Shown here: positions 8,804-24,839 of the stretch, in pieces
Layout of the letters: every line of letters begins with the position of its first letter
How positions within the stretch are numbered: position 1 is the stretch's first letter
Source of the DNA: a bacterium SCSIO 12643
GTDB taxonomy: Bacteria; Bacteroidota; Bacteroidia; Flavobacteriales_G; Salibacteraceae
Direction of reading: 5' to 3'
DNA length: 64,000 nucleotides
Assembly (NCBI GenBank): GCA_024398135.1
Contig: CP073750.1
Location: 3,410,001 to 3,474,000 of the forward strand
Made by a program: the position numbers and the translations under genes
The notes under the pieces: model-generated
The model's input: the letters and a program-made list of their open reading frames with translations, nothing else
Told to the model about the DNA's origin: nothing
Database searches by the model: none

Positions 8804-9267
8804 TGGATATTTGGATTGCAGTAGTCTTGGTGGTATTTGGAATAATATTCCTATTACTTGAAATTTTTGTTTTTCCTGGAATTGGAGTTACAGGTATCGT
8901 TGGGACTATATCTCTGATTGCCGGAGTAGTTATCGCATTTAATCAGGGAACAGAAATGGGGATGTATACCCTGGGAGGTGTGATGTTGAGTGTTGGAGTG
9001 CTCATTTATATATCCGTTAAAACCGATACAATGTCCAAAATGGCCTTATTGAAGAATATAGATTCGAAAGTAGAGATGAATGAAATGAACAAACTCAAAG
9101 TGGGTGAAGAAGGTATTACGGTTTCCAGATTGGCTCCAATGGGTAAAGCCAGATTTGGTAATGTTTATACTGAAGTTTCATCCTGGGAAGGGTTTGTAGA
9201 TGAAAACACTCCCATTCGAATAGAGAAGTTTATTGATAATACTATTTTTGTTTCACCCATAATTTAA
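8803..9267 (+). CDS. NfeD family membrane protein
   Basis: 154 residues. Three hydrophobic segments fill residues about 3-72, followed by a soluble OB-fold-like C-terminal domain (GEEGITVSRLAPMGKARFG, then IRIEKFIDNTIFV). This is the short NfeD form without the ClpP-like protease domain. NfeD proteins pair with flotillin/stomatin proteins and are thought to help form membrane microdomains. The gene overlaps the M48 protease stop by one base and lies 6 bases before floA, the expected partner order. Confidence 0.9.
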   Translation: MDIWIAVVLVVFGIIFLLLEIFVFPGIGVTGIVGTISLIAGVVIAFNQGTEMGMYTLGGVMLSVGVLIYISVKTDTMSKMALLKNIDSKVEMNEMNKLKVGEEGITVSRLAPMGKARFGNVYTEVSSWEGFVDENTPIRIEKFIDNTIFVSPII

Positions 9268-14792: not shown

Positions 14793-17700
14793 ATGACTAA
14801 AACAGAGGTGTATAAGCCAGAAAATAAGGTGAGAATTGTAACTGCCGCGTCATTGTTTGATGGACACGATGCTGCAATCAATGTAATGCGTAGAATTATT
14901 CAATCTACAGGTTGTGAGGTTATTCACCTTGGTCACGACAGAAGTGTAGAGGATGTTGTGAATTGTGCCATACAGGAAGACGTTCAGGCTATCGCAATGA
15001 CATCTTATCAGGGAGGACATACAGAGTATTTGAAATATATGTATGATCTACTAAAAGAAAATGGTGCAGGTCATATTAAAATATTTGCTGGTGGTGGTGG
15101 AACAATTTTACCATCAGAGATCAAAGAATTAGAAGCTTACGGAATAGAGAGAATCTATCATCCCGATGATGGTCGTGAAATGGGACTACAAGGGATGATT
15201 AATGATTTGGTTCAACGTTCTGATTTCCCAGTAGGAAAAGGGCTGACCAATGAATTATCAAAAATCAAATCTAAAGATAAAGTAGCCATTGCAAAGCTGA
15301 TTAGTGGAGCGGAGAATTATTCTGAGGAGTATACAGAAATCTGGAAAGAATTAGCGCCTTTAACTGAGGCTTCCAAAACTCCGGTATTAGGAATTACAGG
15401 AACAGGTGGAGCAGGAAAGTCATCTTTAGTAGATGAGTTGGTAAGAAGATTCTTAATTGATTTTGAGTATAAAAATATAGCGATTGTATCTGTAGATCCA
15501 TCAAAGAGAAAAACGGGAGGTGCGTTATTAGGTGATAGAATTCGTATGAATGCGATCAATAATAATCGTGTATATATGCGTTCGTTAGCGACTCGTCAAA
15601 GTAACCTCGCATTATCTAAACATGTTGCAAAATCTTTAGAGATTTTAAAAGCAGCAGAGTTTGATTTGATCATACTGGAAACATCAGGAATTGGTCAGTC
15701 GGATACCGAGATTATGGATCACTCAGATGTTTCGTTATACGTAATGACCCCTGAGTTTGGTGCAGCTACACAATTGGAAAAAATCGATATGTTAGATTTC
15801 GCAGATTTAGTGGCAATCAACAAATTCGATAAAAGAGGAGCTTTAGATGCTATCCGTGATGTGAAAAAGCAATATATGCGTAACCATAATCTTTGGGATG
15901 CAGATATGGATAGTTTACCCGTATTTGGAACAATTGCTTCGCAGTTCAATGACCCGGGAATGAATTCATTGTACAAAAGTATAATGGATAAAATTCATGA
16001 AACCTCTGGTGTTGATATGAAATCGGGATTTGAAATTACAAAAGAGATGTCTGAAAAGGTATTTGTAATACCTCCATCAAGAGTTAGATATTTATCTGAG
16101 ATTTCAGAAAATAACAGAGCATACGATAAAGATGTTACCAAGCAAGCGGATATTGCGCAGAAGCTTTATGGCATTTATAAGACGATGCAAACCGTTTCCG
16201 GAGCAGATTTAATTCTGGATAAATCTGGAGTAAGTATCGAAGAAGGTGTTTTATCGGAAGACAATAAAATACTTTTTGAACTTTTACAAAAAGAGTTTGA
16301 TCGCGTAAAAATGGATTTAAACCCACATCATTGGGAAACGATTATTTCCTGGAATGATAAGGTGAAAAAATACAAAGACCCTGTATTTAAGTTTAAAGTA
16401 AGAGATAAAGAATTATCAATTAAAACACATACAGAGTCATTATCTCATAGCCAAATCCCAAAGATTTCTTTACCAAAGTATACTGCGTGGGGAGATTTAT
16501 TAAAATGGAGTTTACAAGAGAACGTTCCCGGAGAATATCCATATACCGCAGGTTTGTTCCCATTCAAACGTGAAGGGGAAGACCCGACAAGAATGTTTGC
16601 CGGAGAAGGTGGTCCTGAAAGAACCAACAGAAGATTCCATTATGTAAGTCAGGGAATGCCGGCAAAGCGTTTATCTACGGCATTTGATTCTGTAACACTT
16701 TATGGTAATGATCCAGATACACGTCCGGATATTTATGGTAAGATTGGTAATTCTGGTGTGTCTATTTGCTGTTTGGATGATGCCAAGAAGTTGTATTCCG
16801 GTTTTGATTTATCACATCCATTAACGTCAGTTTCAATGACCATTAATGGACCTGCGCCAATGTTATTAGGGTTCTTTATGAATGCGGCTATTGATCAAAA
16901 CTGTGAGAAGTACATTGTTGAAAATGGACTAGAGAAAGAAGTAGAGGCTAAAATCAAAGCTATTTACGATAAAAAAGGAGTGATACGTCCAAGCTATCAG
17001 GGTGATTTGCCTAATGGAAACGATGGTCTGGGATTGATGTTATTAGGTGTAACCGGTGATCAGGTGCTTCCGGCTGATGTTTATGCAAAGATTAAAGCAG
17101 AGACGTTAACCAAAGTAAGAGGTACTGTACAAGCGGATATCTTAAAAGAAGATCAAGCACAGAATACATGTATTTTCTCTACTGAGTTTGCGTTGAAATT
17201 GATGGGTGATGTACAAGAATATTTCATCAACAATGGGGTGCGTAATTTCTATTCCGTATCGATTTCGGGGTATCATATTGCCGAAGCAGGGGCAAATCCA
17301 ATTACGCAATTGGCTTTAACCTTGGCAAATGGATTTACTTATGTAGAATATTACATGAGTAGAGGAATGGATATCAATAAATTCGGACCGAACTTATCAT
17401 TCTTCTTTTCAAACGGAATTGATCCTGAATATGCGGTAATTGGTAGAGTGGCACGTAGAATTTGGAGTAAAGCATTAAAACATAAATATGGTGCGAATGC
17501 ACGTGCGCAAATGTTGAAATATCATATTCAAACAAGTGGTCGTTCGTTACACGCTCAGGAGATTGACTTCAATGATATTCGCACTACGTTGCAGGCACTT
17601 TATGCGATAAATGATAACTGTAACTCTTTGCATACCAATGCATATGATGAGGCAATTACAACTCCAACGGAGGAATCTGTTAGAAGAGCAATGGCTATTC

Positions 17701-18218
17701 AGTTGATCATTAACCGCGAGTTGGGATTATCTAAAAACGAAAACCCAATTCAAGGTGCATTTATCATTGAAGAGCTAACTGATTTAGTGGAAGAAGCGGT
17801 ATTGAGAGAATTCGATAGAATTACCGAGAGAGGTGGGGTGCTTGGAGCAATGGAGACCATGTATCAAAGAAGTAAGATCCAGGAGGAATCTTTACATTAT
17901 GAAACGTTAAAACATACCGGAGAATTCCCTATTATTGGTGTGAATACTTATTTGAGTTCTGAAGGGTCTCCAACAGTTCAGCCGAAAGAAGTGATTCGAG
18001 CAACTGAAGAGGAGAAGCAATATCAAATTGAAATGTTATCTGAATTGCATAAAGGAAATGAGGAGAGAGTGAATGAGGAATTGGAGAAAGTGAGAAACGC
18101 AGCTATTCAGAATGAAAATATTTTTGATCAATTAATGGAAGCTTCTAAGTATTGTTCTTTGGGACAAATTACGAATTCTTTATTTTTGGTTGGAGGACAG
18201 TATAGAAGAAATATGTAA
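14793..18218 (+). CDS. icmF: Fused isobutyryl-CoA mutase IcmF (B12 domain, G-protein chaperone, mutase)
   Basis: IcmF interconverts isobutyryl-CoA and n-butyryl-CoA (some also pivalyl-CoA) with adenosylcobalamin. The 1141 residues hold, in order, a cobalamin-binding domain (about 10-140, FDGHDAAIN and SYQGGH), a MeaB-like GTPase chaperone (about 195-420, P-loop GTGGAGKSS), and the mutase barrel (about 560-1100). The fusion order, small domain first and GTPase in the middle, separates it from ordinary methylmalonyl-CoA mutase. It suggests branched-chain or fatty acid carbon metabolism and a need for B12. It is transcribed alone, with its own promoter-like element and a terminator. Confidence 0.93.
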
Positions 18219-18256: not shown

Positions 18257-18289
18257 AAAAAGAGGGTGATAATTTGTCATCCTCTTTTT
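18257..18289 (+). terminator. Intrinsic terminator after icmF
   Basis: AAAAAGAGGGTGA (18257-18269) pairs with TCATCCTCTTTTT (18277-18289) with one wobble or mismatch near the loop, followed by GTTTTT. It separates icmF from the VTC/CotH operon. Confidence 0.85.
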
Positions 18290-18360: not shown

Positions 18361-18368
18361 TATATTTG
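18361..18368 (+). promoter_or_regulatory. Candidate -7 element of the VTC/CotH operon
   Basis: TATATTTG matches TAnnTTTG and lies 62 bases before the GTG at 18430. I see no good TTTG at 17-23 bases upstream, so this is a partial promoter match. Confidence 0.4.
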
Positions 18369-18429: not shown

Positions 18430-18825
18430 GTGAAGAATATTATTTACACCTTATGTATTGCAGTCTTTGCCCTCTCATGTTCAAAATCACCTGGAGTTGG
18501 AGGAAAAGCGACTATTAAAGGAAAAGTAGAAGCGGTATATGTGAAAGAAGGGAGTTTTGATACTCTTGAAATAAGTGCGGTTCCAGATCATAGAGTGTAT
18601 ATTGTATATGGTGGAGGAGCTTCTCAGGACGATGATTATCGAACAAGTCCGGATGGGAGCTATAAATTTGAGTTTTTGAACCCGGGAGATTACAAAATCT
18701 ACACGTATTCTGATAGTAAATTAAATGTTTCTGGACTACAGGAAGTAGCGCGAAGCATTCAGGTTGGGAAAAAAGAAACGGAGGTAGTAGTACCTACGAT
18801 TCAAATTATTCAATACGTGAAATGA
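18430..18825 (+). CDS. Small lipoprotein, first gene of the VTC/CotH operon
   Basis: 131 residues from GTG 18430. The lipoprotein signal peptide runs to FALSC (Cys at about 17). The mature part is a small beta-rich domain with a repeated glycine-rich segment (YGGGASQDDD) and a phrase YKFEFLNPGDYKIYTYSD like those in carboxypeptidase-regulatory or SdrD/Cna-B-type folds. It probably sits on the inner face of the outer membrane or on the surface. The in-frame TTG at 18400 would add ten residues before the signal peptide, which is less likely. It overlaps the VTC gene by 4 bases (ATGA), so the two are translationally coupled. Specific role unknown. Confidence 0.75.
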   Translation: MKNIIYTLCIAVFALSCSKSPGVGGKATIKGKVEAVYVKEGSFDTLEISAVPDHRVYIVYGGGASQDDDYRTSPDGSYKFEFLNPGDYKIYTYSDSKLNVSGLQEVARSIQVGKKETEVVVPTIQIIQYVK

Positions 18826-19577
18826 TTCGGGAAATTACCCATATCCTATCTGAGATTCCAACTGTATCATTATTGGATTTGGAACAAGTTGAATTTGAAT
18901 CTAGAATTGATACCAAGTATGTCTTTCATCAGGATTTGCTCGTCTCTTTTTTGGATGACATCAAAGATGAACTGCAAGTTCTGGAAATATCCGGAGAAAG
19001 AATTTTTGGATATGAAAATGTATATTTTGATGATCCAAATTATACATTTTTCAAAAAACACCATTCCGGATTTGCGAATCGAAGCAAAGTGAGAATCCGT
19101 AAATATTCAGATAAGGGGCCATTCTTTTTTGAGATAAAATCTAAGACGAATAAAGGGAAAACCGAGAAATACAGGGTGCCATTGCAGTATTTTGGTTTAG
19201 ATAATGATGTCGAGATTTCTAATTATTTGAGAAGTCGAATTGGTTATAAGATGAATGAGTTGAATAGAAAAACAAATATCAACTATCAACGTATTACCTT
19301 TACCAATAAAGATTTATCTGAAAAATATACCATAGATTTTCACATGAATACCTCCAATAAGAATGGTTCATACGATTTTAAGAATTTAACGATTGTAGAG
19401 GTGAAGCAGAAGAAGTTCTCCGGTTTAAGCCCGTTTTTGAGAGCTCTTAGAAAGATAAACGTAGCACCGACACGATTTTCTAAATATTGTACCTCTGTGA
19501 TACGGTTAGACCATTCCGTAAAACATAATAGGTTTAAACCCATTTTGCGAAAAGTGGATAAAATAATTAGCGCATAA
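18822..19577 (+). CDS. VTC-domain protein (polyphosphate polymerase-like)
   Basis: 251 residues with the features of the VTC domain, a tunnel-fold enzyme that in yeast makes polyphosphate from ATP. Basic tunnel residues appear in SKVRIRKYSD, the acidic/basic strand in FFFEIKSKTNKGKTEKYRV, the strand TIVEVKQKK, and the C-terminal FSKYCTSVIRLD that is typical of bacterial members. No signal peptide or membrane helix is seen, so it works in the cytoplasm. Bacterial VTC-like proteins are commonly found with DUF4956 and CotH genes, as here; whether they make polyphosphate or another product is not established. It starts inside the lipoprotein stop and ends 9 bases before the DUF4956 gene. Confidence 0.87.
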   Translation: MIREITHILSEIPTVSLLDLEQVEFESRIDTKYVFHQDLLVSFLDDIKDELQVLEISGERIFGYENVYFDDPNYTFFKKHHSGFANRSKVRIRKYSDKGPFFFEIKSKTNKGKTEKYRVPLQYFGLDNDVEISNYLRSRIGYKMNELNRKTNINYQRITFTNKDLSEKYTIDFHMNTSNKNGSYDFKNLTIVEVKQKKFSGLSPFLRALRKINVAPTRFSKYCTSVIRLDHSVKHNRFKPILRKVDKIISA

Positions 19578-19586
19578 CTTTCGAAT

Positions 19587-20210
19587 ATGATACTAGAAAT
19601 AAATCCAACACATTTTTTTGAATCTAACCTTACCGAAGTAGCAACTTTGGAGTTCGGAGTGAGATTCTTGATGAATACCATAGCGTTGGCAATTATAATC
19701 TTAAAAATTTATCAGCCTACTCGAAGAGATCAGGAGTACATGTTTACTTATTTGATCTTTGGGCCGATTGTATTTTTCATGGTGAGCTTGTTTGCGCAAA
19801 CGCAATTGGGTGTTGGATTTGCCTTTGGACTATTTGCGGTGTTTTCTATTTTAAGGTATAGAACCACTACGATTCCTGTAAAGGAAATGACCTATATGTT
19901 TACGGTAATCTCTATATCCGTAATCAATGCCATTACGACTGAAATGATGGTATGGAGCAATTTGTTGATCATTAACCTGATTATTGTATTGATCGTTTAT
20001 TTAACAGAGAAAGCATTCTATAAAAAGGGAATTGAAACTCAGATTATTCTATACGAGAAAATCGAGAATATCCATCCCGATCGTTCTGCTGAGTTGATCA
20101 AAGATTTGGAAGAACGTACTGGAAATCAAGTGGAGAAATTTGATGTTTTGGAATCTGATTATTTAAGAGATTCTGTAAGACTTAGAATCTATTATCGTCC
20201 AGCGAATTAA
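19587..20210 (+). CDS. DUF4956 family membrane protein
   Basis: 207 residues with about four membrane helices between residues 25 and 145, then a soluble C-terminal ferredoxin-like segment (EKIENIHPDRSAELIKDLEERTG...). The family phrase FGLFAVFSILRYRT lies in the middle. DUF4956 proteins are inner-membrane proteins without a known activity and are usually encoded beside VTC-domain proteins, so a role in moving or sensing the VTC product is a reasonable guess. The stop overlaps the start of the DUF2490 gene by one base. Confidence 0.88.
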   Translation: MILEINPTHFFESNLTEVATLEFGVRFLMNTIALAIIILKIYQPTRRDQEYMFTYLIFGPIVFFMVSLFAQTQLGVGFAFGLFAVFSILRYRTTTIPVKEMTYMFTVISISVINAITTEMMVWSNLLIINLIIVLIVYLTEKAFYKKGIETQIILYEKIENIHPDRSAELIKDLEERTGNQVEKFDVLESDYLRDSVRLRIYYRPAN

Positions 20211-20848
20211 TGTATCTAAAAAGATCCATATTAGTTTTTATATGTATGCTCGCGATGCATGGTACCTATGCACAGAATCAAGATTTTGGAATTTGGGCTG
20301 GAGTTAAAGTGAGTAAAAAATGGAACAAGAAGTGGAGTGCTTTCGGAGAAGTGCAAACGCGATTGTTTCAAAATGTCACTTCCATCCGATCAGCTTATTT
20401 TCAGGGAGGAGTCAATTATAAGTTTGCCAAATGGTATAAACTGGGAGTGGTGTACCGATATACAGATTTTGGCGAGATAGAAACCAATAGGTTTGATATT
20501 GATAATGAATTTAGGCACAAGGTAAAGAAAAATACTTTTGAGATCAGATTGAAGTATCAAAAGACCATTGTAGCTAACGATTTAAGAGGAAATAGATATA
20601 GAATTCGATTTAAGTATAGCTACAAAATCAATAAAAAGTTGAAACCATATGTAAAAGCACAGTATTTTTACACACAAGCCTACGATTTTAATGGATGGCA
20701 TCAACAACGCTATACTTTAGGTACGTTGATTCGAATTCGTAAAAGAAATTACATTGACCTCTTTTACAATTACGATTTTGAATTTAATGTGAGACGTCCT
20801 GATGAGCGATTTATTGTTGGGATAAAATATAAACTGGAACTGAAATAA
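20210..20848 (+). CDS. DUF2490 outer-membrane beta-barrel protein
   Basis: 212 residues with a signal peptide (MYLKRSILVFICMLAMHG, cleavage after TYAQ) and alternating amphipathic strands rich in Tyr and Lys (WYKLGVVYRYTDFGE, YRIRFKYSYKINKK), ending in a short C-terminal strand YKLELK. This matches DUF2490, a Bacteroidota family assumed to form an outer-membrane barrel. It lies in the middle of the operon, overlapping both neighbours by one base, which places an outer-membrane component between the inner-membrane DUF4956 protein and the secreted CotH protein. Function unknown. Confidence 0.85.
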   Translation: MYLKRSILVFICMLAMHGTYAQNQDFGIWAGVKVSKKWNKKWSAFGEVQTRLFQNVTSIRSAYFQGGVNYKFAKWYKLGVVYRYTDFGEIETNRFDIDNEFRHKVKKNTFEIRLKYQKTIVANDLRGNRYRIRFKYSYKINKKLKPYVKAQYFYTQAYDFNGWHQQRYTLGTLIRIRKRNYIDLFYNYDFEFNVRRPDERFIVGIKYKLELK

Positions 20849-23800
20849 TGCAGAATCTGAAGTATTACATAATTACCGTTTTACTGAGCATATCTTCAAT
20901 TTTGAATTCTCAAGACTTAAGAATTAATGAATTGATGCCCAATAACGGAATCACTGTATTTGATAGTTTTGATGAAAATTCAGATTGGATTGAAATTTAT
21001 AACAATACCAATAACCCGATTCAGATTTCAGATTATTATATCTCCAATGATTTTAATGATAAGCTTAAGTGGCAATTACCTAATAAGAATCTTCAACCGC
21101 ATAAATGGGTGATCATTTTTTGTTCAGACCTGGATCTATATACCCCGGATTATCATGCCAATTTTAAATTAAAAAACGAATCGGATACGGTAGGAATATT
21201 TTTTAAAGATGGTTCTACTATCGATGTATTCGCATATGATTCTTTGCCAGTAGATGTATCTTTTGGCAGAGAAACGGATGGAAGTAATACCCTGGTATAT
21301 TTTGATAATCCAACGCCTAAAAAAACAAATAATACTTCTACCGGGTTTAACTGTATTTTAGAGATACCTAATGTTAACTTTAACTCGGGTTTTTATCCAA
21401 GTCCATTAAATGTTTTGGTAAATCATCCTACTAACGGTGTTGAATTAAGGTATTCAGTAGATGGAGATGATCCCACATCTTCTGATCCATTATATAGCGG
21501 AAGTTTGCAGTTATCTACAGATTATTCTCCAAATAAGTTTTGTGAAATACCTACAAACCCTGCTTTAAATGCTCCTGTCGCTACTTATTCAGTGATACGT
21601 TCTAATAATAGAGGTTGGTTGGCTCCAAATGGAGATCAACAAAATGTGAATGTTTTGAAAGTTAAAGCGTTTAAGTCGGGATGTATCAGCAGTGATATTG
21701 TATCCAGAACCTATTTTTTGGATGATGGAAATGTAACTTTCCCTGATTTGCCAATCATTTCAATACAAGCCGATAGTACTGGTTTTTTTAGTGATGAAAC
21801 AGGAATTTATGTGTACGGTAATGCGTATAATGGAAATTACAATAAGAGAGGAAATGATTGGGAAAGACCAATTTATTTAGAGTATTTCGATGAAAATGGG
21901 ATTCAATTAATAGGACAAAAAATTGGGGGAGAGCTTCATGGTAATGGATCTCGTCATTCTACACAAAAGAATATTCGTGTTTCTGCAAAAAGTATGTATG
22001 GTAAAAAACGAATAGAGGCACCTTTATTCGATGATTATGACATTGAAGAATTTAAGTATTTAATTGTGCGTTCTCCCGGACATAGACCTGATTGTATGCC
22101 AAGAGATGAGTTGGCAACTTCGATTGTAGCAAAATTAGGTTTTGATATCCAACAGTATAAAACCGGAGTAATGTATTTGAATGGTGAGTTTTGGGGAATA
22201 CATACGATTAAGGAAAGATTTAATGAAGATTATATCTCCATAAAATATGATATGGATGATGATCATATCGTGTTAATAGAATCAGATGGAGAAGTAGAAC
22301 ATGGTTACCCAGAAGATACTGTGCACTATTTTAATATGCTGGATTTTGTGGCGAATAATAGTTTGGATATTCCGGAAAATATGGAATACTTAAATACGCA
22401 AATGGATATTCAAAACTATCTGGATTTTATGGCATCGGAGATTTACATCGGAAATGGGGATTGGCCAACCAACAATATGCGTTATTGGAGAAAAAGAGTA
22501 GACTATAATGATTATGCCAGCCTGGGGCATGATGGTAGATGGAGATGGATGTTTTTTGATTTAGATGGCGGATTTGGAGGAACCTGTGAAGATGTATTTT
22601 ATACAATTAACACCTTAGAACGTGCATTAACTGATACCGGACATTTCATAGAATATACGCAGTTTTTTAGAGATTTAACGCAATATCAAAGTTTTAGAGA
22701 ATTATATATTAATAATTCATGTGATAAGTTAAACTCTTCATTTTTAAGTCAGGTCGCTCAGCCCAAATTAAATACCATTGTAAACGATTTAAATCTGGTG
22801 ATGACTGATCATGTCAACAGATGGGGGTACCCTTCAGTTAGTACAACTTTGGCAGACCGGATGAATGAAACACCAAGCCTTACCAAGTGGAATTATCTGG
22901 TAACCAGATTTGATACTTTTATTACCAAAAGGGCCTTTTATGTGAGAAGGCATATGCAGGAAAAATGGAGTTTATCCGACACTTCGGTAGTTACTATTGA
23001 TGTCAATAATCCAACGATGGGGTATGTGCAACTGAATACTCTACATATCAATTCTGATTTGGAAGGTGTTAGTCCGTCAGTATACCCATGGAATGGTCAA
23101 TACTTCAATAATATTGATATCCCTATTCATGCACATGCGTATCCTGGGTATCGATTTGTAGAGTGGTTAGGTACCCCAATGACATCAGCAGATACCTCCA
23201 TTAATATAACAGGAGATTCAACTTTTACAGCGATTTTTGAAGTCGATCCGAATTATGTGCCACCATTACCAATTACGATTAATGAGATTCAGGCCTGGAA
23301 TACTGCCACCGTTTTTGATGAAGATTTTAAATATGCAGATTGGATAGAGTTGTATAATCCAAATGATGAAGATATTGATATCACCAATTATTATTTAACA
23401 GATAATAAAGATAAGCTAAGAAAATATTGGATTGGTCCGAATAAAACTGTGATCAAAGCCAAAGAATTTATGGTGTTCTGGGCGGATGGAAATACTGGTA
23501 AAGGACAAAACCATACTAATTTTAAATTGAGTAAAGATGGTGAAATGGTAGCCCTGGTTGCTCCGAACGGAGTTACTGTAGTTGACTCTATCAGCTTTGG
23601 AGTACAAAAGGAAAACTATTCGTTCGGTAGGTTATCAGATGGCAACGATCCGTGGGTGGAGTTTGAATATCCAACACCGTTTTATAGTAACTTAAAAACA
23701 GACGTATCTGATTTTCCTCAACCTGTGGAATGGAAGGTATACCCAAATCCGGTAAATGGATCAACTGTATATTTCAATTCACGTACATCCGGTGAATTGT

Positions 23801-23931
23801 ACAATATATCTGGAGTTCTGATTAGACATTTTGAAAATAGTAATTCTTTAAATCTTGATTACATTATTCCAGGAGTCTATATTCTTAGAAATTCTGTTAC
23901 CGGAGAAAGTATAAAGTTGATTGTGCAGTAA
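20848..23931 (+). CDS. Secreted CotH-family kinase-like protein with two lamin-tail domains and T9SS type A sorting domain
   Basis: 1027 residues. Order: signal peptide (about 1-22), lamin-tail domain (about 24-150, INELMPNN and DWIEIYN), a chitobiase-like C-terminal domain segment (about 180-215, LRYSVDGDDPTSSDP), the CotH domain (about 300-690), an InlB-like beta repeat (about 715-790, GYRFVEWLG), a second lamin-tail domain (about 805-950) and a type A sorting domain (WKVYPNPVNG to SIKLIVQ). The CotH motifs FWGIHTIKERFNEDY and FFDLDGGFGG are intact. CotH of Bacillus spores is an atypical protein kinase; a secreted phosphorylation role here is inferred. It is the last and largest gene of the operon and ends 5 bases from the convergent menA stop. 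Confidence 0.92.
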   Translation: MQNLKYYIITVLLSISSILNSQDLRINELMPNNGITVFDSFDENSDWIEIYNNTNNPIQISDYYISNDFNDKLKWQLPNKNLQPHKWVIIFCSDLDLYTPDYHANFKLKNESDTVGIFFKDGSTIDVFAYDSLPVDVSFGRETDGSNTLVYFDNPTPKKTNNTSTGFNCILEIPNVNFNSGFYPSPLNVLVNHPTNGVELRYSVDGDDPTSSDPLYSGSLQLSTDYSPNKFCEIPTNPALNAPVATYSVIRSNNRGWLAPNGDQQNVNVLKVKAFKSGCISSDIVSRTYFLDDGNVTFPDLPIISIQADSTGFFSDETGIYVYGNAYNGNYNKRGNDWERPIYLEYFDENGIQLIGQKIGGELHGNGSRHSTQKNIRVSAKSMYGKKRIEAPLFDDYDIEEFKYLIVRSPGHRPDCMPRDELATSIVAKLGFDIQQYKTGVMYLNGEFWGIHTIKERFNEDYISIKYDMDDDHIVLIESDGEVEHGYPEDTVHYFNMLDFVANNSLDIPENMEYLNTQMDIQNYLDFMASEIYIGNGDWPTNNMRYWRKRVDYNDYASLGHDGRWRWMFFDLDGGFGGTCEDVFYTINTLERALTDTGHFIEYTQFFRDLTQYQSFRELYINNSCDKLNSSFLSQVAQPKLNTIVNDLNLVMTDHVNRWGYPSVSTTLADRMNETPSLTKWNYLVTRFDTFITKRAFYVRRHMQEKWSLSDTSVVTIDVNNPTMGYVQLNTLHINSDLEGVSPSVYPWNGQYFNNIDIPIHAHAYPGYRFVEWLGTPMTSADTSINITGDSTFTAIFEVDPNYVPPLPITINEIQAWNTATVFDEDFKYADWIELYNPNDEDIDITNYYLTDNKDKLRKYWIGPNKTVIKAKEFMVFWADGNTGKGQNHTNFKLSKDGEMVALVAPNGVTVVDSISFGVQKENYSFGRLSDGNDPWVEFEYPTPFYSNLKTDVSDFPQPVEWKVYPNPVNGSTVYFNSRTSGELYNISGVLIRHFENSNSLNLDYIIPGVYILRNSVTGESIKLIVQ

Positions 23932-23936
23932 GTCAG

Positions 23937-24839
23937 TTACAGTATTTGTCCTAAACCAAATGTTATGGCATAAAGCAATGTACTTAACGCTTGAATTTTA
24001 AGTAAAGGATCCAACTCTTTAGGTTCTTGAGCTTTATATGTTTTTATAACAACAATGGATAATGGGAGAACACTAATCCAAAACAATTGTTGCCACATTC
24101 CTGTTCCAAAAGCCAGTGTGTACCAAAGAGAAGTAAATAAAGTCAATAGAAATAGTACCATTTGATATTTACGTGCATTTTGATACCCCAATTTTACAGC
24201 AAGAGTATATTTCCCCGAGTTTTTATCATTTACAATATCTCGGGTATTGTTGAGGTTAAGTACACCAGCACTTAAAATTCCTAATGCACTGGCAGGTAAA
24301 AATACTGGAAGATCAATACTTTGAACTTGCAGAAAATAAACTCCTATAACAGAAACCCAGCCGAAGAATAGAAAAACAAAAACATCACCCAGTCCTTGAT
24401 AACCGTAAGCTGACTTTCCAACGGTATATTTAATGGCTGCCCAAATGGCACTTAATCCAATCAGTAAAAACAACATAGCATATCCTAGTTTATGCGTACC
24501 GAAGCTCAACCACAATAGGATGATTCCTGAAATCAGGGATAGTATGCTAAATAAGATCAAAGCTGATTTCATCTGCGATTTAGAGATTTTTCCACTTTGT
24601 AATGCGCGTTCCGGGCCAACTCTTTCATCATTATCCGTTCCTTTGGAAAAGTCACCATAATCATTCGCCAGATTAGATAGAATCTGCAACAAGATTGCTG
24701 TAAGGATCGCAAATAATGTAATATTTAAATTGAAGGAGTCGTTACTTTTAGCAAGTAATGAACCAAGTATAATACCAGCAACAGCAAGTGGTAATGTTCT
24801 TAGGCGAAATGCTCCAATCCAGGCTTTAAAATTTGACAT
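23937..24839 (-). CDS. menA: 1,4-dihydroxy-2-naphthoate polyprenyltransferase MenA
   Basis: MenA attaches the polyprenyl tail to 1,4-dihydroxy-2-naphthoate in menaquinone synthesis at the inner membrane. The 300-residue protein has about eight membrane helices, the Asp-rich motif NDYGDFSKGTDND (residues about 60-72) and the second motif NNTRDIVNDKNSG (about 197-209). The family phrase ERVGPERALQSGKIS follows the first motif. Length fits. It stands alone on the minus strand. Its stop lies only 5 bases from the CotH stop. Confidence 0.94.
   Translation of the reverse strand: MSNFKAWIGAFRLRTLPLAVAGIILGSLLAKSNDSFNLNITLFAILTAILLQILSNLANDYGDFSKGTDNDERVGPERALQSGKISKSQMKSALILFSILSLISGIILLWLSFGTHKLGYAMLFLLIGLSAIWAAIKYTVGKSAYGYQGLGDVFVFLFFGWVSVIGVYFLQVQSIDLPVFLPASALGILSAGVLNLNNTRDIVNDKNSGKYTLAVKLGYQNARKYQMVLFLLTLFTSLWYTLAFGTGMWQQLFWISVLPLSIVVIKTYKAQEPKELDPLLKIQALSTLLYAITFGLGQIL

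Follow-up and report, generated by a model that had tools for sequence, protein, structure and literature searches.

A VTC–DUF4956–CotH operon of Bacteroidota as a candidate export-coupled polyphosphate system

Five genes of the bacterium SCSIO 12643 (Bacteroidota, Flavobacteriales_G, Salibacteraceae) form an operon whose VTC–DUF4956–CotH core recurs beyond chance across bacterial genomes. We propose that its VTC polymerase and DUF4956 translocator export polyphosphate to a surface module, a reading that we consider close to an even bet, though slightly short of one. The proposal draws on gene order, on the catalytic residues and fold of the polymerase, and on linkage to CotH and to envelope conduits, all obtained by computation. 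Throughout, the window is the whole 64,000-nucleotide stretch of contig CP073750.1 that was analysed.

Organisation of the operon

The five genes lie on the same strand at positions 18430–23931 of the window (Table 1), and ORF calling reproduced the coordinates, order and overlaps given in the preliminary description. The lipoprotein and VTC genes overlap at ATGA, VTC and DUF4956 are separated by a 9-base gap, and the DUF4956/DUF2490 and DUF2490/CotH junctions are each a TAATG overlap. The complete order, lipoprotein–VTC–DUF4956–DUF2490–CotH, is also found in a congener (L006). Downstream, the operon is bounded by a convergent gene on the opposite strand (23937–24839), and upstream the preceding gene ends at 18218. 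This upstream gene (14793–18218) encodes one chain resembling B12-binding, GTPase and acyl-CoA mutase domains, like the fused mutase IcmF, and looks unrelated to the operon.

Between the two, a hairpin followed by a T-rich run was picked out by eye as the probable terminator of the upstream gene; a terminator scan allowing loops of 3–8 bases reported none. The Bacteroidota −7 promoter consensus is TAnnTTTG, to which the octamer TATATTTG bears a weak likeness, and no well-placed −33 element was seen by eye near it. A sigma-70 promoter scan gave no more sites than were found in shuffled sequence, and an Rfam search over the operon region returned no match.

Table 1. Features of the operon and its upstream flank (window positions).
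Feature	Position	Strand	Details
Hairpin AAAGAGG...CCTCTTT, then T-rich; probable terminator of upstream gene	18258..18289	+	by eye
TATATTTG, weak likeness to Bacteroidota −7 promoter element	18361..18368	+	by eye
Lipoprotein gene	18430..18825	+	131 aa, GTG start, ALSC lipobox
VTC / triphosphate-tunnel polyphosphate polymerase domain protein	18822..19577	+	251 aa, PF09359
DUF4956 inner-membrane protein, proposed translocator	19587..20210	+	PF16316
DUF2490 outer-membrane beta-barrel, proposed conduit or receptor	20210..20848	+	PF10677, signal peptide
Secreted CotH kinase-like protein	20848..23931	+	1027 aa; CotH domain and a pair of LTD domains; borderline T9SS-type tail

The VTC protein retains the polymerase residues

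In the Pfam scan the VTC domain was the only one above cut-off on its chain (5.8e-26, 91.9 bits against a curated cut-off of 23), with no SPX domain. A profile built from 64 sequences picked out yeast VTC4 from the PDB (2.6e-12), and alignment equates K32, R91, R93, K106, R157, E193 and K221 with VTC4 K200, R264, R266, K281, R361, E426 and K458. The preliminary description had raised the loss of catalytic residues as a possible weakness; all seven of these tunnel and metal residues are kept, each in 63–64 of the 64 aligned sequences. Four of them (K200, K281, R361 and K458) were chosen in view of the VTC4 structure. The other three, R264, R266 and E426, were mutated to inactivate the yeast VTC complex (PMC9911596). 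The AF2 model of the protein (pLDDT 95.1) has VTC4 (3g3r) as its best PDB fold (E=2.3e-13), ranking above triphosphatases and other tunnel (TTM) enzymes. Given the retained catalytic residues and this fold, the protein probably polymerises phosphate to polyphosphate.

A VTC paralogue at L103:8130-8993 deviates at several catalytic positions of the alignment and is possibly non-catalytic, as in yeast Vtc2/Vtc3. Two apparent fusions were discarded: that of VTC with DUF4956 in Bacteroides cellulosilyticus (L076, ~8900-9050), where a run of N joins the frames into a false 542-aa product, and a 787-aa ‘fusion’ in L058, which is a spurious high-GC frame.

A family search found no PPK1 in the window genome or in two congeners, and located two tandem PPK2 genes outside the window (G000:C1:318277-319789). 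PPK2 enzymes are usually thought to be polyphosphate consumers, and the VTC polymerase would supply them in this genome. A general role of VTC as stand-in for lost PPK1 was rejected: phylum-wide, VTC shows no relation to the absence of PPK1 (3/19 against 34/179, p=1).

VTC, DUF4956 and CotH co-occur beyond chance

Of 198 evenly sampled Bacteroidota genomes, 37 have VTC, 59 DUF4956 and 81 CotH. All 37 VTC genomes have DUF4956, which lies within 1.5 kb of 39 of the 41 VTC genes, and the distances of the two families correlate (rho 0.77). CotH likewise occurs in all 37, compared with 44 of the 161 genomes without VTC (Fisher 8e-18, an optimistic value because the sampled genomes are related); the safer figure is at genus level, with CotH in 28/28 VTC genera against a background of 59/103 (p=4e-9). 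None of 20000 size-matched permutations reached the VTC–CotH link, so genome size is no explanation. Within the window's own order, CotH is present in 16/16 VTC-positive genomes and 8/26 others, and in one genome of this order (G216), whose VTC is broken, CotH is missing. The recurrent pairing put forward in the preliminary description gains support, and co-occurrence is conserved among relatives.

The core recurs in Bacteroidota, Chloroflexota and Deinococcota, and LytTR- or OmpR-type two-component regulators are recurrent neighbours. Most of the control genomes fit the pattern: C. glutamicum and M. acetivorans contain all three families, whereas Bacteroides ihuae has VTC and DUF4956 without CotH, with Cthe_2159 in the operon instead; CotH and Cthe_2159 occupy 37 and 9 loci, respectively, and never the same one. 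A further locus, L123 (PBNL01000005.1), is titled Euryarchaeota archaeon and has the gene order of flavobacterial-type loci (L119, L021); it is probably misbinned.

The trio is not confined to Pel loci

The preliminary description put the system forward as a candidate undescribed one, which does not hold for the trio. The genes cotH, polyphosphate polymerase and DUF4956 are reported as accessory genes beside Pel operons in streptococci, clostridia and bifidobacteria (PMC7112168). In S. intermedius, strains deleted for a DUF4956-type gene or for cotH lose over half of their aggregation in one medium and have altered Pel levels, while deletion of the VTC gene has no such effect (PMC12345266). 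The membrane protein of that study is described there as MgtC-like with an ACT domain; from this description and PMC7112168 we read it as the DUF4956 protein. No paper found in the mainly open-access literature that we searched assigns a function to the cluster, in line with the preliminary description.

These data invite the explanation that the trio acts on an exported glycan, be it Pel, a cellulose-like polymer or another, by tuning or modifying it, polyphosphate being incidental. The adjacency to Pel operons in Firmicutes and bifidobacteria and the two S. intermedius phenotypes fit it, as do the glycan-binding Cthe_2159 proteins that take the place of CotH at 9 loci and the set of VTC, CotH and glycosyltransferase genes in C. 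perfringens NELoc-2 (PMC2879425). However, PelG was above cut-off in 0/37 VTC-positive Bacteroidota genomes and in the window genome there is none; the window operon carries no glycan synthase, and the recurrent neighbours are conduits and regulators. We regard this accessory role as unlikely. The authors of PMC12345266 did not find the trio arrangement outside Pel loci; contrary to that statement, it is common in Bacteroidota without Pel, and a Deinococcus plasmid carries CotH–PPP–DUF4956 without Pel neighbours. What is new here is this spread without Pel, together with the association with conduits and the export model. A cassette so far regarded as bound to Pel proves to be general, which changes the reading of its mutant phenotypes.

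DUF4956 adjoins envelope conduits

The DUF4956 domain was found well above cut-off in the Pfam scan (8.4e-48). Its AF2 model (pLDDT 88.8) has five long helices followed by a C-terminal beta-alpha-beta-beta domain of ferredoxin/ACT-like type, and N30, Y42, R90, R92, T93, N114, E141, R177 and G179 are invariant in the alignment. Positive charges at 46–47, 90–98 and 141–147 would, by the positive-inside rule, place the C-terminal domain and the invariant R90/R92-T93 motif in the cytosol. A PDB fold search returned no solved structure at E<=0.001; its weak matches include aspartate-kinase ACT domains, in agreement with the ACT domain described for the S. intermedius membrane protein. Homology to the VTC1-type three-helix membrane channel was rejected on the five long helices and the absence of a fold match.

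Three kinds of neighbour were counted as conduits: DUF2490 barrels, HlyD adaptors (alone or together with TolC) and phosphate-selective porins of the OprO/P family. Among loci with enough flank, 103 of 133 have a conduit beside DUF4956, and in the even sample this is true of 29 of 33 VTC loci; as background, the conduit families make up 4 of 915 ORFs at 4.5–9 kb distance. Where VTC and DUF4956 are both present, the conduit is a DUF2490 barrel in 79 loci and an HlyD-family adaptor in 14, never both. None of five Chloroflexota loci has a conduit (p=4e-4), as expected for what is regarded as a single-membrane lineage. An OprO/P porin stands straight after DUF4956 in Pseudoalteromonas (L143, 2.4e-47) and in one Bacteroidota genome (L043), which hints at a phosphate-based cargo. 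One locus (L046) has the order CotH–DUF4956–HlyD–TolC–VTC. Where Bacteroides/Prevotella-type genomes have no VTC, an HlyD adaptor and then a TolC-like protein come after DUF4956. VTC-less loci of this type (L149-L162, L061) share a conserved DUF6580–DUF4956–HlyD–TolC–SDR arrangement.

This pattern argues for DUF4956 as the inner-membrane part of an export path, and we infer that in the window it may be a translocator feeding polyphosphate out. If VTC does make polyphosphate, coupled export through DUF4956 is somewhat more probable than its opposite. The conduits also bear on the idea that VTC merely fills a cytosolic polyphosphate store, with DUF4956 an MgtC-like regulator and CotH linked through shared physiology only. 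The published MgtC/ACT description, the ACT/ferredoxin-like domain with its weak aspartate-kinase matches and the two PPK2 genes, which could draw on stored polyphosphate, would suit such a store. We nevertheless hold it to be quite unlikely: hhalign gave a probability of 0.5% for DUF4956 as an MgtC homologue (a weak test, against four MgtC template sequences), DUF4956 consistently adjoins envelope conduits, and CotH, mostly bearing export signals when near VTC, is found in all VTC-positive Bacteroidota of the even sample.

Lipoprotein, DUF2490 and CotH proteins

The lipoprotein has a carboxypeptidase-regulatory-like fold and no family above cut-off in the Pfam scan; its family occurs near DUF4956 on the same strand in 42 loci, with a lipobox in most. 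DUF2490 (1.4e-18), CotH (PF08757, 3.5e-33, residues 363–698) and LTD (1.5e-31) were all above their Pfam cut-offs. The CotH family profile matches the Bacillus CotH structure 5jd9 at 7.9e-36, whereas the domain as a lone sequence query found no PDB relative. Both aspartates of catalytic type (D538 and D571) are retained in the window protein. Its tail is borderline for T9SS sorting (22.8 bits for TIGR04183, cut-off 23; 19.2 for PF18962, cut-off 27), and the T9SS channel SprA is encoded in the genome. Most CotH proteins encoded near VTC begin with a hydrophobic, signal-like stretch, and 16 of 47 have a lipobox. The assignment of the five products to different compartments in the preliminary description gains support. 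A second, divergent CotH gene of the same genome lies outside the window (G000:C1:3911227-3912123), and one near-VTC CotH gene (L010:11857-14051) is in two frames and apparently broken.

VTC is absent from 22 of the 59 DUF4956 genomes, mostly ones with HlyD–TolC in Bacteroides/Prevotella-type loci, so that DUF4956 may carry something else. Conceivably, then, DUF4956 and CotH are the true unit, exporting a donor or substrate other than polyphosphate, with VTC an optional add-on. CotH is present in 18 of these 22 genomes, and in S. intermedius the phenotype common to the DUF4956 and CotH deletions is missing from the VTC deletion. In addition, five loci, not all of which have VTC, carry after DUF4956 a family with weak likeness to CotH (hhalign E 8.8e-5, probability 60). 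Set against this, VTC adjacency is the strongest link in the data and is accompanied by the correlated VTC and DUF4956 distances, and PPK1 is present in 22/22 of the VTC-less DUF4956 genomes (90% of the sample has PPK1). On balance we find such a unit improbable.

The five members of the CotH-like family (L034:8841-9863, L035:10418-11440, L073:9551-10693, L106:9596-10693 and L131:9656-10735) are ~350 aa long, without a Pfam match, and carry the kinase-like motifs IGNTDW...HNIKL...YDFDW. In L034 a calcineurin-like phosphoesterase follows.

Proposed mechanism

In the export model the operon would do in bacteria what the VTC polyphosphate polymerase-translocase does in eukaryotes. Its VTC enzyme would polymerise phosphate from ATP in the cytosol, and DUF4956, as its partner, would thread the anionic chain across the inner membrane. 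An outer-envelope part would then relay the chain, namely the DUF2490 barrel here and, in other loci, an OprO/P porin or HlyD (alone or with TolC); Chloroflexota loci would have no such part. At the surface, the lipoprotein and the secreted CotH/LTD protein may bind, anchor or use polyphosphate. The preliminary description had offered, as speculation, a polymer made inside and used outside, and the catalytic residues, conduits and CotH link now add weight to that idea. The export model is weakened most by the S. intermedius VTC deletion, which had no aggregation phenotype (PMC12345266), and by the VTC-less DUF4956 systems. The missing fold match of DUF4956 to the VTC1 channel, the lack of a VTC–PPK1 relation and the CotH-less B. 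ihuae also speak against it.

A further step, that exported polyphosphate is the phosphoryl donor of an extracytoplasmic CotH kinase, strikes us as a long shot. It would explain the presence of CotH in every VTC-positive Bacteroidota genome of the even sample, and, if true, surface proteins or glycans would be phosphorylated where ATP is absent. A review of polyphosphate assigns the bacterial route to PPK1/PPK2 and the eukaryotic route to VTC (PMC10657179). A widespread bacterial VTC polymerase with its own membrane partner and conduits would, if true, be a second, export-coupled polyphosphate route, and might explain how kinases function extracellularly.

Comparison with known systems

The accessory genes of Gram-positive pelDEA(DA)FG operons share with our operon the three neighbouring families, a secreted CotH and a membrane protein with an ACT-like domain. 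Unlike that cassette, the window genome is without Pel (as judged by PelG) and combines the trio with a lipoprotein and putative T9SS-type secretion, while an outer-membrane barrel or HlyD/TolC partners accompany it in these loci. The Bacillus CotH spore-coat kinase (5jd9; PMC7821199) has the same CotH domain with both catalytic-type aspartates; the window protein differs in its predicted export beyond ATP-rich compartments, its LTD domains and its borderline sorting tail. In the DUF4956 subgroup with an adjoining HlyD adaptor and TolC protein, the arrangement resembles tripartite HlyD–TolC efflux, except that the inner-membrane part would be DUF4956 rather than an RND, ABC or MFS pump; the window itself has the DUF2490 barrel. 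OprO/OprP porins, absent from the window operon, contribute a family member straight after DUF4956 in two lineages.

In yeast, the VTC complex (Vtc1/Vtc3/Vtc4) couples synthesis to translocation (PMC9911596). The window polymerase differs in having no SPX domain, DUF4956 is a separate gene unrelated to Vtc1-type helices by fold search, and operons of the window's type add envelope conduits and CotH. Common to both are the TTM tunnel and metal residues and the pairing of the polymerase with a membrane protein, a pairing for which we propose coupling here as well.
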